64,000 bases of DNA from Archangium gephyra (GTDB lineage Bacteria; Myxococcota; Myxococcia; Myxococcales; Myxococcaceae), in NCBI RefSeq assembly GCF_001027285.1, contig NZ_CP011509.1, forward strand, positions 5,092,501 through 5,156,500, read 5' to 3'. Below are positions 43,937 through 47,973 of this stretch, piece after piece. The number at the start of each line of letters is the position of its first letter. Positions within the stretch are counted from its first letter, which is position 1. Both the position numbers and the translations under genes were made by a program. The notes under the pieces are model-generated. The model ran no database searches. It worked only from the letters and a program-made list of their open reading frames with translations, and was not told the origin of the DNA.

Positions 43937-46900
43937 ATGGGGTGCCCAGACGAAACGACGCTGAGCGACTTCCTGGTGGGGCTTCTGCCGGAGGCGCGCA
44001 GGCAGGAGGTGCTGGCGCACGTGGAGGGCTGTGCCAGTTGCCAGCGGGCGCTGGCGGCGGGCGGCGACTCCACGCCGACGGCCGGTGTCCCGGACGTGTC
44101 CTCCTCCGGGAGCAGCGAGCCGCTGGCCCGGGGCGCCACGCTCTCCCGGTACGTGGTGCAGGAGCGGCTCGGCTCCGGGGCCATGGGCGTGGTGTACGCG
44201 GCGTATGACCCGGAGCTGGACCGGCAGGTGGCCCTCAAGCTGCTGCGTCCCGAGGGCCGCGGAGTGGAGGAGCTGAGGCTGCGGCTGTTGCGTGAAGCCC
44301 AGGCGCTGGCCCGGCTCTCCCATCCCCACGTCGTCGCCGTGCACGACGTGGGCATGTGCGGGGACGGTGTCTTCCTGGCGCTGGAGCTGGTGGATGGCAC
44401 CACGCTGGCGGACTGGTTGAAGGAGCCGCGGCCCTGGCGCGAGGTGCTGCGGGTCTTCCTGGACGCGGGGCGGGGGCTGGCGGCCGCGCACGCGGCGGGA
44501 CTGGTGCACCGGGACTTCAAGCCCGCCAACGTCCTGGTGGGCCGGGATGGCCGGGCGCGGGTGACGGACTTCGGACTGGCCCGCCCCGCCAGCCGCGCGG
44601 GCGTGCTCCCGGAGACGTCCTCGGCCCAGGTGCCCGTGCCGGAGGAGGACTCGCTCGGACTGCTCACCCGGACGGGCGCGCTGCTGGGGACGCCGGCCTA
44701 CATGGCGCCGGAGCAGCTCGAGGGCCATGGGGTGGACGCGCTCTCGGACCAGTTCAGCTTCTGCGTGGCCCTCTACGAGGCGCTCCACGGGGTGCGGCCC
44801 TTCGACGGCCTGAGTCTGCAGGAGCTCGGCCAGGCCGCGCGCGAGGGCAGGGTGAAGGCGCCCGGGCGCGACTCGAAGGTGCCCGCGCGGGTGCGCAACG
44901 CGGTGCTGCGCGGGTTGCGGCCCCGGCCCGAGGATCGCTTCCCCTCCATGGAGGCCCTGCTGGTGGCGCTCACCCCGGCTCCCAGCCGCGTGCGCACCTG
45001 GGTGGCGGTGTCCGCCGCCACGGCGTGTCTGGTGGGCGTGGCCATGGGCTACGTGGTGGCGCACCGGCGCGAGGCACGCTGCGCGCAGGAGGCGGAGAAG
45101 CTCGACGCGGCCTGGGGCGCCGGGCGGCGGGAGCGGGTGCGCGCCGCCTTCCTCGCCACGAAGAAGCCGTATGCCGCGGACGCCTGGGAGAAGCTCTCCA
45201 CCGCGCTGGATGCCCACGCCTCCCTCTGGCGCTCGCTGCGCACCGAGTCCTGCCTGGTGGCGGATGAGGGCGCCTCGGGCCCCGCTTCGCGCCTCGCCTG
45301 GCAGACGGCCGCGTGCCTCGACGCCCGGCTGTGGCAGTTCGCCGCCGTCACCGAGGTGTTGGAGAAGGCGGACGCGCAGACGGTGCAGAACGTGCCGCAG
45401 CTCGTGGCCTCGCTCGAGGGGCTCGCGGGGTGCAGGGATGCCCCGGCCAGCTCCACCCGGCCCCAGCCGCCCGAGCTGCTCCGTCCCCGCGTGGATGCCG
45501 CTCGCCGCAAGCTGGCCGAGGCCCGCGCCCTCATGGAGGCCGGCCGGCACGCCGAGGGCAACGAGATGACGTCCGCCCTCCTCCAGGAAGTCGACGCGCT
45601 CGACTACCGTCCCCTGGAGGCGGAGGTGCTCCTGCTCCGCGGCCAGCTGCACGGCCACCTCGGCAAGGCGAAGGAGGCCGAGGACATCCTCTACCGCGCC
45701 CTCTGGGCCGCCGAGGCCGGCCGCGATGATGAGACGGTGGCCCGTGTGTGGGTGCTCCTCGTGTGGATCGTGGGAGATCAGATGGCGCGCGTGGGGGAGG
45801 CGGATCGGCTCGCCCAGCACGCCCGGGCCGTGGTGGAGCGGCTGGGGCGCGAGCGCTTCCCGGCCATCGCCACGGATCTCCACTTGCGGCTGGGCGGGGT
45901 GCGGCTCGTCCAGGGCAAGCTGGAGCAGGCGGACGAGGAACTCACCCAGGGCCTGGAGCTGGCGCGCAAGACGTACGGGCCCGACAGCCTGCGCACCTCC
46001 TATTTCCTCTCCAGCCTGGGCCGGGTCCGCTCCCGCCAGAACCGGACGGTGGAGGCGCTGGCGCTCTACCGTCAGGCCCAGGAACTGCGCGAGCGCCTCT
46101 GGGGCTCCGAGCACCCCGCGCTCGCCCTCAATCTCAGCAACCTCGCCACGGAGCTGCTGTCCCTGGGACGGCGCGAGGAGGCGGTCGCCGCGTGGCGCCG
46201 CGCCCTGGCGCTGCTGGAGGCCTCGCGCCCCCCGGATCACGCCAGCCTCGGCCCCCCGCTCAACAACCTCGGCTCGGCCCTGCGCGATCAGGGCCGGCTG
46301 GACGAGGCCCGGCAGTACCTCAAGCGGGCGCTCGCCATCTTCGAGCGCAGCAAGGGCCCGAATCATCCCAACACCGCCACCACGCTCAGCGGGCTCGGGA
46401 TGGTGGCCTACGACTCCCAGAATCTCGACGAGGCGCTCGGCTATCAGCGGCAGGCGCTGGAGCGCATCCAGAGCGCGCTGGGCCCGGACTCGCCGCGGGC
46501 CGCCGCGCCGCTGATGTACCTCGGGGTCGTCCAGCACCGGATGGGCCACCACGACGAGGCGCGGCGCCACCTGCTGCGCGCCCTGCACCTGTGGGAGAAG
46601 GAGAACGGCCCGGACAGCGCCACGGTCAACAACGCGCTGCGCCCCCTGGCCCGGCTCGAGCTGTCGGCCGGTGCGCCCCAGAAGGCGCTCGCGTACTGCA
46701 AGCGCGCCCTGGGCAATGACGAGCGGGCGCAGGGGACGGAGACCCCGGACGTGGCGATGGATCTCGCGTGCGTCGCGGAGGCGCACCTGGCGCTCGGTGA
46801 CCCGGAGCAGGCCGTGCCGCTGCTCGAGCGGGCCCGGCTGTTGAATGCGAAGGCCCCGAGGGATCCACTGGACGAGGCGTGGGTCTCCTTCCTGCTGGCC

Positions 46901-47083
46901 CGGGCGCTCGGAGAGCGGGAGCCCGCCGTGGAGCTCGCGCGGGCCGCCGCCCTGGCGGAGGAGGCGCGGGTGCGGATGACCGCCCTGGGCACGCGGGCAC
47001 GCCTGGAGCTGAAGGAGGTGACGGCCTGGCAGGAGCGGCACCCGGCTCCGTCCTCCGTGGCTCGCAAGGCGGTGACGCCGTGA
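43937..47083 (+). CDS. Ser/Thr protein kinase with anti-sigma-type zinc motif and TPR domain
   Basis: A 1048-residue membrane signalling protein. Residues 28-35 give H-x3-C-x2-C (HVEGCASC), with another Cys at position 3, as in zinc-binding anti-sigma factors. The kinase domain (about 70-335) is complete: GSGAMG, VALKLL, VHRDFKPAN, TDFGLAR and MAPEQLE. A transmembrane helix (about 354-375) follows, then a long TPR-rich region of about 650 residues. The next gene, a sigma factor, overlaps its stop as GTGA. The architecture suggests a receptor kinase that senses outside the membrane and controls that sigma factor. The partner relationship is inference. Confidence 0.9.
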   Translation: MGCPDETTLSDFLVGLLPEARRQEVLAHVEGCASCQRALAAGGDSTPTAGVPDVSSSGSSEPLARGATLSRYVVQERLGSGAMGVVYAAYDPELDRQVALKLLRPEGRGVEELRLRLLREAQALARLSHPHVVAVHDVGMCGDGVFLALELVDGTTLADWLKEPRPWREVLRVFLDAGRGLAAAHAAGLVHRDFKPANVLVGRDGRARVTDFGLARPASRAGVLPETSSAQVPVPEEDSLGLLTRTGALLGTPAYMAPEQLEGHGVDALSDQFSFCVALYEALHGVRPFDGLSLQELGQAAREGRVKAPGRDSKVPARVRNAVLRGLRPRPEDRFPSMEALLVALTPAPSRVRTWVAVSAATACLVGVAMGYVVAHRREARCAQEAEKLDAAWGAGRRERVRAAFLATKKPYAADAWEKLSTALDAHASLWRSLRTESCLVADEGASGPASRLAWQTAACLDARLWQFAAVTEVLEKADAQTVQNVPQLVASLEGLAGCRDAPASSTRPQPPELLRPRVDAARRKLAEARALMEAGRHAEGNEMTSALLQEVDALDYRPLEAEVLLLRGQLHGHLGKAKEAEDILYRALWAAEAGRDDETVARVWVLLVWIVGDQMARVGEADRLAQHARAVVERLGRERFPAIATDLHLRLGGVRLVQGKLEQADEELTQGLELARKTYGPDSLRTSYFLSSLGRVRSRQNRTVEALALYRQAQELRERLWGSEHPALALNLSNLATELLSLGRREEAVAAWRRALALLEASRPPDHASLGPPLNNLGSALRDQGRLDEARQYLKRALAIFERSKGPNHPNTATTLSGLGMVAYDSQNLDEALGYQRQALERIQSALGPDSPRAAAPLMYLGVVQHRMGHHDEARRHLLRALHLWEKENGPDSATVNNALRPLARLELSAGAPQKALAYCKRALGNDERAQGTETPDVAMDLACVAEAHLALGDPEQAVPLLERARLLNAKAPRDPLDEAWVSFLLARALGEREPAVELARAAALAEEARVRMTALGTRARLELKEVTAWQERHPAPSSVARKAVTP

Positions 47084-47973
47084 GCGGGACCCAGGACGCG
47101 GACTCCCTCGCCGCGCTGCTGCGGGCCCAGGTGCCACCCGAGCGGAGCACCGGTCTGGCGGGGGTGGAGGACCTGGAGCCACTCCTGCGGGAGCTGCTGC
47201 GCAAGGGGCGGGAGGCATGGCCCGCCGTCACGCTCCCCGCGGAGACCTTCGTGCGGCACCTGGCGCGGCACCTGCCCGCCGAAGGCGGCGCCGAGGTGCT
47301 GCGCCACCTCCATGGAGCCGATCTGTACCTGGCCTGCGCCTGCGCCGTGGGGGAGCGCCAGGCCCTGCTCGTCTTCGAGCAGCAGGTGCTCCAGAAGGTC
47401 CCCGCGCGGCTCGGACAGCTCTCCTCGTCCACCGTGGACGAGGTGCTGCAGGTGATGCGCCAGCGGCTGCTGCTGGGCCGGGGCGACACGCCTCCGAGGA
47501 TCGCCGACTACTCGGGCCGGGGTCCGCTGCTGGCCTGGGTGCGCATCATCGGGATGCGCATCGTGGGCGAGCTGGCGAGCCAGGACGGACGCCAGGAGCT
47601 CTTCGACGAGCCTCCCGAGACGCTCGCGCGGATGCTGGCGCCGGACGATCCGGAGAGGGAGCTGCTCAAGGAGAACTCGCGCCAGGTGCTCGTCACCGCG
47701 CTCCGGACGGCCCTGGCCGCCATGCCCGAGGCCGAGCGGGCCCTGCTGCGCCTGCACCACATCCATGGCCTCACGATGGACCGGCTGGCGACGATGTATG
47801 GCGAGCCCCGCTCCAGCATCGCGCGCCGGGTGATGCAGTCCCGCGAGCGGTTGCTGAAGCTCACCCGGGGGGAGCTGGCCTCCCGGCTGAAGCTCGATGG
47901 CTCCGAGCTGGAGAGCCTCCTGGGCCTGGTGCGCAGCAGGTTGGATCTCAGCCTCAACCGGCTGATGGACTGA
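47080..47973 (+). CDS. RNA polymerase sigma-70-type factor, myxobacterial family
   Basis: A 297-residue sigma factor. The region-2-like segment is around LYLACACAVGERQALLVFEQ and VRIIGMRIVGELAS. Region 4 has MPEAERALLRLHHIHGLTMD followed by ATMYGEPRSSIARRV, an HTH ending in RERLLKL. The divergent region 2 and length resemble the myxobacterial sigma family (TIGR03001-type). The GTG start overlaps the kinase stop by 4 bases, so the two are coupled. It may direct transcription of part of the terpenoid island; no target promoter could be identified. Confidence 0.82.
   Translation: MSGTQDADSLAALLRAQVPPERSTGLAGVEDLEPLLRELLRKGREAWPAVTLPAETFVRHLARHLPAEGGAEVLRHLHGADLYLACACAVGERQALLVFEQQVLQKVPARLGQLSSSTVDEVLQVMRQRLLLGRGDTPPRIADYSGRGPLLAWVRIIGMRIVGELASQDGRQELFDEPPETLARMLAPDDPERELLKENSRQVLVTALRTALAAMPEAERALLRLHHIHGLTMDRLATMYGEPRSSIARRVMQSRERLLKLTRGELASRLKLDGSELESLLGLVRSRLDLSLNRLMD

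Follow-up and report, generated by a model that had tools for sequence, protein, structure and literature searches.

Sigma factors of the extracytoplasmic function (ECF) type that are coupled to kinases are already a known kind, and zf-HC2 zinc fingers and Hanks-type kinases are known parts. In the ECF43 pairs PknS-EcfK and PknT-EcfP, a transmembrane Ser/Thr kinase adjoins an ECF-type sigma factor, and the accessible text of PMC13147305 describes PknS as three to four predicted N-terminal helices on a flexible linker, followed by the kinase domain, a transmembrane segment and periplasmic tetratricopeptide repeats (TPRs). The ECF43 sigma factors typically lack the acidic residues of region 2.2 and are activated by Thr-phosphorylation, whereby the phospho-Thr restores the missing charge (PMC8999054 and PMC13147305, in their accessible parts). 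Class I zinc anti-sigma factors (RslA, RsiW, ChrR and DdvA) are proteins of their own; according to the available passages of PMC7406223, their helices 1-3 bind sigma4, while helix 4 binds sigma2 and probably prevents binding of the core polymerase. In the SigH-RshA-PknB system of Mycobacterium tuberculosis, the kinase phosphorylates both the zinc anti-sigma factor and the sigma factor, as stated in the available passages of PMC13147305 and PMC8999054. The present analysis concerns a kinase-sigma pair in a 64,000-nucleotide stretch (the window) of the Archangium gephyra genome (12.49 Mb, single contig), in which a zinc finger of anti-sigma type is built into the kinase itself.

As in the ECF43 pairs, a transmembrane Ser/Thr kinase of the window adjoins an ECF-type sigma factor, and the kinase follows the layout of PknS. 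The sigma factor, in contrast, belongs to a different family: it displays TVDE instead of the QTTA or STTA Thr motif, and its type carries Asp or Glu where ECF43 sigma factors become phosphorylated. With the class I anti-sigma factors the finger shares helices 1-3 and the H-x3-C-x2-C motif, and its best PDB matches are all four of these proteins by profile and RslA, RsiW and ChrR by fold. However, the finger is devoid of helix 4 and fused to a receptor composed of kinase, transmembrane helix and TPRs. Likewise, SigH-RshA-PknB consists of three proteins, whereas the window has an anti-sigma-like finger and a kinase in one chain. The name of the sigma family, TIGR03001 Sig-70_gmx1, is silent on a kinase partner. 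The window pair is nonetheless a Ser/Thr protein kinase-coupled sigma factor with a conservedly adjoining kinase gene, and it is a widespread myxobacterial system that is not peculiar to the window locus.

Architecture of the finger-kinase and its sigma factor

The kinase open reading frame (ORF) was read from the sequence at 43937-47083 and encodes 1048 residues; like all features of the pair, it lies on the forward strand. The zinc finger (residues 1-43, 43937..44065) is followed by a flexible linker without helix 4 (44066..44140), where the AlphaFold2 (AF2) confidence (pLDDT) falls below 50 for residues 46-58. The Hanks-type Ser/Thr kinase domain covers about residues 72-340 (44150..44956). 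The PF00069 Pkinase model matches residues 72-301 with 124.6 bits, a PknB match reaches residue 338, and the catalytic motifs VALK (98), HRDF (191), DFG (211) and APE (257) are all present. A single transmembrane helix is predicted at residues 356-374 (45002..45058), the top 19-residue hydropathy window (2.04). The C-terminal part (45059..47080) is rich in TPRs (TPR_12, 197.8 bits over 8 stretches, next to matches of further TPR models) and is a putative periplasmic sensor. With its complete catalytic motifs and transmembrane helix, the protein is, as judged from its sequence, a Hanks-type receptor Ser/Thr kinase. The sigma factor gene (47080-47973, GTG start, 297 residues) begins inside the kinase stop codon in a GTGA overlap (47080..47083). 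ATGA or GTGA also forms the end of 49 of the 59 same-order kinases, a count made over overlapping locus sets and on kinase ends, the sigma starts not being checked singly. The first-pass annotation had pointed out the motif HVEGCASC at residues 28-35 as an exact H-x3-C-x2-C, the complete kinase, the membrane helix with a TPR-rich remainder and the sigma start inside the stop codon, and it was right on each of these.

Within the finger, C3 completes the zinc site: the ligands C3, H28, C32 and C35 form the pattern C-x24-H-x3-C-x2-C, and PF13490 (zf-HC2) matches with 26.6 bits (cut-off 22.2). The four residues are invariant across an alignment of 48 fingers (the window and 47 of the 58 motif-bearing loci of set 2, see below), which is a selection effect because the rows were picked by that motif. 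Searched against the PDB, the finger profile finds RslA (3hug, 5.2e-8), DdvA (8rlz, 6.1e-5), RsiW (5wuq, 1.7e-4) and ChrR (2q1z and 2z2s, 5-6e-4); the 3hug chain is labelled just as conserved membrane protein, and its identity as RslA is taken from the entry title. A ferritin at 0.49 represents noise. The window finger alone has 3hug as its best match at a non-significant 0.17. In the AF2 model of 64 residues (mean pLDDT 74, predicted template modelling score (pTM) 0.47), helices are formed by residues 6-14, 19-31 and 33-43, and the pLDDT amounts to 82-89 per ten-residue block through residue 40. All 14 Foldseek matches of this model, from four entries, are RslA, RsiW or ChrR anti-sigma chains. 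As modelled, the finger has the form of a class I zinc anti-sigma domain, a three-helix bundle with H-x3-C-x2-C over helices 2 and 3, and the sequence matches support in part that it belongs to the anti-sigma family. As helix 4 is missing, the finger would represent half of an anti-sigma domain.

A matching finger (residues 8-40, 6e-4) was also found in a CHAT-domain protein (8rot_B), which hints at anti-sigma-like fingers being joined to other effectors. Similarly, the ORF L135:5067-8054 combines the same kind of finger with a hydrophobic stretch and no kinase motif by pattern, and the finger may occur on other receptors. A PknS chain was not recognised among the PDB matches listed.

The sigma factor is, by sequence, a clear member of TIGR03001, a family named for the Myxococcales. 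The match scores 320.6 bits (cut-off 154.6) and covers all 244 model positions. Against the generic TIGR02937 model the score is 36.3, under the cut-off of 42.9. With a profile of 62 relatives, the sigma factor is found in 75 of 146 sampled genomes of the phylum (E up to 1e-20), with a maximum of 14 per genome. Based on the AF2 model (mean pLDDT 85, pTM 0.65) and alignments, sigma2 comprises about residues 79-173 (47314..47598), with region 2.2 (TVDEVLQ) at 118-124, and is joined through a disordered linker (170-190) to sigma4 (about residues 191-270, 47650..47889; PF08281 at residues 207-258). The model is completed by extra helices at the N-terminus and one at the C-terminus (274-295); its top Foldseek matches are ECF sigma factors (best E 0.0025, none below 0.001). 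The predicted arrangement of sigma2, flexible linker and sigma4 without sigma3 fits that of the ECF (group 4) sigma factors.

In region 2.2 of the window sigma factor, the first canonical acidic position is occupied by Thr (T118), the third by Asp and the fourth by Glu. The third position, residue 120, is the motif-aligned counterpart of the ECF43 phospho-threonine. Window-type sigma factors have D/E at the third and E/D at the fourth position in 58 of 58 cases (near-copies included; 50 are non-redundant), and position 118 is variable (T in 25 of 58). Because the third and fourth positions are acidic, the ECF43 switch is unavailable to the window sigma factor. A switch of this kind via T118 was rejected for the window's type, as T118 varies and the two acidic residues after it are conserved. 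With residue 120 being D/E throughout, the sigma factor can probably bind the core without being phosphorylated there, and would need a holder instead. Over set 1 (see below), the third position is acidic in 91 of 106 loci, Ser in 10 and Ala in 5; in the order sigma-then-kinase, Ser occurs in 11 of 38 and Ala in 5 of 38. Seven S/T positions are kept in at least 70% of the sigma factors with a motif-bearing kinase, five of them equally in the 28 sigma factors without one. The remaining two, S/T 232 and 245 in sigma4, are conserved at 83% in the former versus 32% in these 28; we take both to mark the usual start of helices in the helix-turn-helix.

Linkage and co-variation of finger and sigma factor

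The A. gephyra genome contains six TIGR03001 sigma factors above the cut-off, and all six have a nearby kinase ORF that bears an N-terminal H-x3-C-x2-C, in differing orders and orientations and with 0.2 to 2.2 kb from sigma to kinase domain. A scan in the other direction covered 155 kinase matches of this genome (the weakest lie outside those listed) and zf-HC2 scores for 150 of 326 candidates. Of the 23 zf-HC2 matches, six stand directly 5' of a kinase on the list; that at 9698566 falls below the Pfam cut-off. Five of these six kinases adjoin a TIGR03001 sigma factor, and the remaining one stands alone (L134). The kinase paired with the sixth sigma factor has the motif and no zf-HC2 match.

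Two sets of loci were compared beyond this genome. Set 1 is made up of the window, its five own paralogues and 100 loci taken from a longer listing, namely the best 80 non-own rows and 20 lower-scoring ones, 13 of which come from genomes otherwise unsampled. Set 2 consists of 79 loci from species genomes scanned for LYLACACA or [RT]F[VAM][RA]HLA[RH]H and is biased to such sigma factors. The sets overlap (e.g. L136 is L058 and L137 is L050) and are not additive. In set 1, a kinase lies within 4.5 kb of the sigma factor in 100 of 106 loci and is motif-bearing in 99 (the six own loci included); the lone motif-less one (L113) is cut by a contig end. Six loci have no kinase within this distance (L062, L096, L114, L123, L124 and L125); in L124 a kinase with the motif lies 5.4 kb away. 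In set 2, a kinase is present within the same 4.5 kb in 62 of 79 loci and motif-bearing in 58, with 17 loci (some with short flanks) lacking a kinase; in L147 the kinase frame begins near a contig end and its N-terminus is missing. Only 2 of 30 other kinase ORFs (five motif-less near-sigma ones included) contain the motif: an extra kinase at 6.0 kb in L150, and one in L183, where a single sigma factor is adjoined by two motif-bearing kinases. The linkage of finger-kinase and sigma factor is far beyond chance and recurs in both sets. On a FastTree of 177 sigma factors with many long branches, the 28 rows without a motif-bearing kinase, truncated ones among them, imply a minimum of 15 changes, and gene order, sorted into six classes, shifts repeatedly (34 changes). 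As the pair is found in several gene orders, the linkage has been kept through rearrangement.

A stand-alone finger protein as replacement of the kinase was rejected for set 2: 13 of the 15 scanned kinase-less loci have no H-x3-C-x2-C frame among ORFs of at least 80 residues (L142 and L190 lie outside the scan, and several flanks are short). The two frames found are short, one overlapping the sigma factor (L178) and one 6.5 kb off (L156). In set 1 (seven loci, 4 kb), L096 alone gave frames, two in number, with one real-looking finger 1.8 kb from the sigma factor. In Archangium violaceum (L157:9905-11026), the sigma gene and the following finger-kinase share one frame with TGA and two codons between them, and the finger falls directly behind the sigma C-terminus.

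The finger and the sigma factor also vary together. Among the 155 pairs, 130 are non-redundant at a sigma identity below 93%. Over these, pairwise finger distances (44 columns) and sigma distances correlate at 0.826, versus 0.715 when the kinase domain (258 columns) takes the place of the finger. Controls of equal length reach at most 0.764 (54 kinase blocks) and 0.757 (100 random column sets). The difference between finger and kinase held in 200 bootstrap samples (minimum 0.074), and the finger outdoes the kinase and its blocks within each of three gene-order groups. In the window subfamily (n=44) the finger, at 0.925, lies above all kinase blocks (maximum 0.900). Such a correlation can come from common rates as well as from contact. 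An evolutionary match of the finger to its sigma factor across the family is supported in part by these sequence distances.

Possible holding or docking of the sigma factor, and the terpene neighbourhood

The membrane receptor kinase may itself be what holds its sigma factor, a reading to which we give an even chance. The finger would grip sigma4, whereby the sigma factor is held by the kinase and kept inhibited. A signal at the TPR part, predicted to lie outside the membrane, would then switch on the kinase; phosphorylation of the finger, the linker or the sigma factor would free or activate the latter, which would drive its regulon. The first-pass annotation had already read the protein as a one-piece receptor that binds and phosphorylates control elements of its sigma factor. 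The family of the finger and its match to the sigma factor speak for the one-piece receptor, while its binding and phosphorylation are what we infer.

Several observations, however, weigh against a finger that holds the sigma factor. Helix 4 is absent from the AF2 model: nothing is helical past residue 43 of 64, and residues 46-58 are disordered. Every Foldseek E-value of the finger exceeds 1. In the window subfamily the whole kinase domain, at 0.934, correlates slightly better with the sigma factor than the finger does, and residue-pair covariation between finger and sigma factor is not above restricted shuffles (effective number of sequences, Meff, 52). In set 2 a zinc ligand is missing from the partner kinases of L166 and L197, that of L194 is without the finger, and there is a lone finger-kinase (L134:4783-7803, 1006 residues) with no TIGR03001 sigma factor nearby, in the same genome.

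The main rival to holding and release is that the finger merely docks an idle sigma factor and that the kinase is a pure activator by phosphorylation, as in ECF43. PknS-EcfK of Xanthomonas citri, in which direct phosphorylation activates EcfK (accessible text of PMC13147305), shares the layout, and the finger model is without the core-blocking helix 4. The 11 of 38 sigma-then-kinase relatives with Ser at the third region 2.2 position make a phospho-switch possible in those relatives, and the stronger conservation of S/T 232 and 245 next to a motif-bearing kinase also fits an activating phosphorylation. In the window type, however, the position phosphorylated in ECF43 is D/E in all 58 sigma factors and S/T 118 is unconserved, and positions 232 and 245 presumably are plain helix-turn-helix starts, so that we regard docking and activation as possible but the less probable course. 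A finger without any sigma contact, acting as structural, dimerisation or redox element of the kinase while the sigma factor is controlled otherwise, would agree with the lone finger-kinase of L134, the finger of the CHAT-domain protein and the absence of a residue-level signal. It is an unlikely explanation, as the finger tracks the sigma factor more closely than any equal-length kinase block tested and its solved relatives are mainly anti-sigma factors.

By far the least probable reading is that the pair serves as pathway-specific switch of the surrounding terpene and P450 genes. Terpene-type genes do flank the pair, as the first-pass annotation had said in placing it in a secondary-metabolite island: a partial squalene-hopene-cyclase match (40067), two cytochrome P450s (42598 and 54764) and a terpene synthase (56154) lie within about 10 kb, and the upstream P450 ends 91 bp ahead of the kinase start. 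P450 homologues (phmmer) also flank one of the 105 other set 1 loci (L107) and three of the 79 set 2 loci (L136, L156 and L162). The two nearest relatives at the locus (G044 and G051), however, keep ribD, the PilZ gene, kinase, sigma and YfhO collinear with the window at 85-96% identity, the pair sitting between ribD and ribBA, while the window segments 39.9-41.9 kb (cyclase-like) and 42.5-43.8 kb (P450) are missing. The stretch 50.9-58.6 kb is missing in G051, and parts of it align at 65-78% in G044, which has a weak P450 homologue (99 bits) about 9 kb 3' of the sigma gene (L136). Two genomes of the same genus (G007 and G028) have a P450 homologue about 4 kb from ribD and their best pair (77% identity) elsewhere. 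G037 has a short weak P450 match near ribD, its best P450 match and its best pair both lying elsewhere. Neither the 105 other set 1 loci (searched mostly within 7 kb) nor the 79 set 2 loci (up to 10 kb) gave a flanking homologue of the window's terpene synthase or cyclase-like gene by phmmer at E up to 1e-10.

A common promoter motif among the neighbouring genes, for which the first-pass annotation had proposed a search, did not emerge convincingly either. The regions 5' of 40067, 42598, 43937, 52887 and 54764 were compared with 12 shuffles per pair (56154 and 58442 lie outside this comparison), and 9 of the 10 region pairs stay within the shuffles. The pair 43937 with 54764 reaches 15/20 versus a shuffle maximum of 14, which is taken as chance. 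On the relatives' locus, the flank homologues and the upstream motifs, the terpene regulon reading was rejected. Since the nearest relatives have the pair in a riboflavin locus without the cyclase-like and P450 genes, the terpene link fails: the pair does not travel with the terpene genes as a cluster-situated regulator would, lies mostly outside terpene loci, and adds no interest to the terpene island itself.

Upstream of the kinase, the element GAAATCCCGGACCCTGATAAT (43905..43925, forward strand) may act as promoter element for the kinase-sigma operon. A nearly identical sequence stands 5' of both nearest orthologues (L050 and L058), and within the window the element occurs once. The terpene-type genes are interspersed with ribD, PilZ, SRPBCC, YfhO, methyl-accepting chemotaxis protein (MCP), ribBA and ribH genes. 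The riboflavin genes themselves are split, ribD (38731-39903) being located about 19 kb from ribBA, ribH and nusB (59368-61594). The stretch between them holds the cyclase-like gene, PilZ, P450, the kinase-sigma pair, YfhO, MCP and the terpene genes, and much of it is missing in Archangium lansinium. The gene at 40067-41902 encodes a diverged cyclase-like protein of 611 residues, which matches the squalene-hopene-cyclase C-terminal model just in part (30.7 bits), and is absent from the locus in the two nearest relatives. In Hyalangium versicolor (L156:5903-12117), a kinase-less TIGR03001 sigma factor is flanked by two P450 genes, one directly behind it.

Implications for kinase-coupled sigma factors

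In titles, abstract openings and passages of PMC2877116, PMC7694542, PMC8103513 and PMC8195603, no mention of this finger on an ECF-linked kinase came up, nor, in the titles and abstract openings, of the combination as regular companion to a sigma family; the ECF reclassification literature lies beyond these sources. The accessible main text of PMC13147305 has no mention of zinc and gives the N-terminus of PknS no family. A 2022 review (PMC8999054) points out that a DAED-like acidic motif is retained in the kinase-linked ECF groups besides ECF43, and that these groups, whose mode of action may differ, still call for characterisation. The window sigma factor is a case of such a kinase-linked sigma factor that retains acidic residues in region 2.2.

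The finger adds a concrete and testable part, an anti-sigma-like domain built into the kinase, and it supplies a hypothesis for the N-terminal segment of PknS. A Myxococcus xanthus strain has the pair in the same order (L145), which makes tests feasible in a tractable species. More speculatively, and rather as a conjecture than as an expectation, a whole sigma family of the Myxococcota could be run by kinases that are anti-sigma factors: the half domain would trap the sigma factor at the membrane, the kinase domain would replace helix 4 and autophosphorylation would open the trap, with the N-terminal helices of PknS as a zinc-free cousin. For the question of how sigma factors come under kinase control, the pair provides an answer that can be tested.

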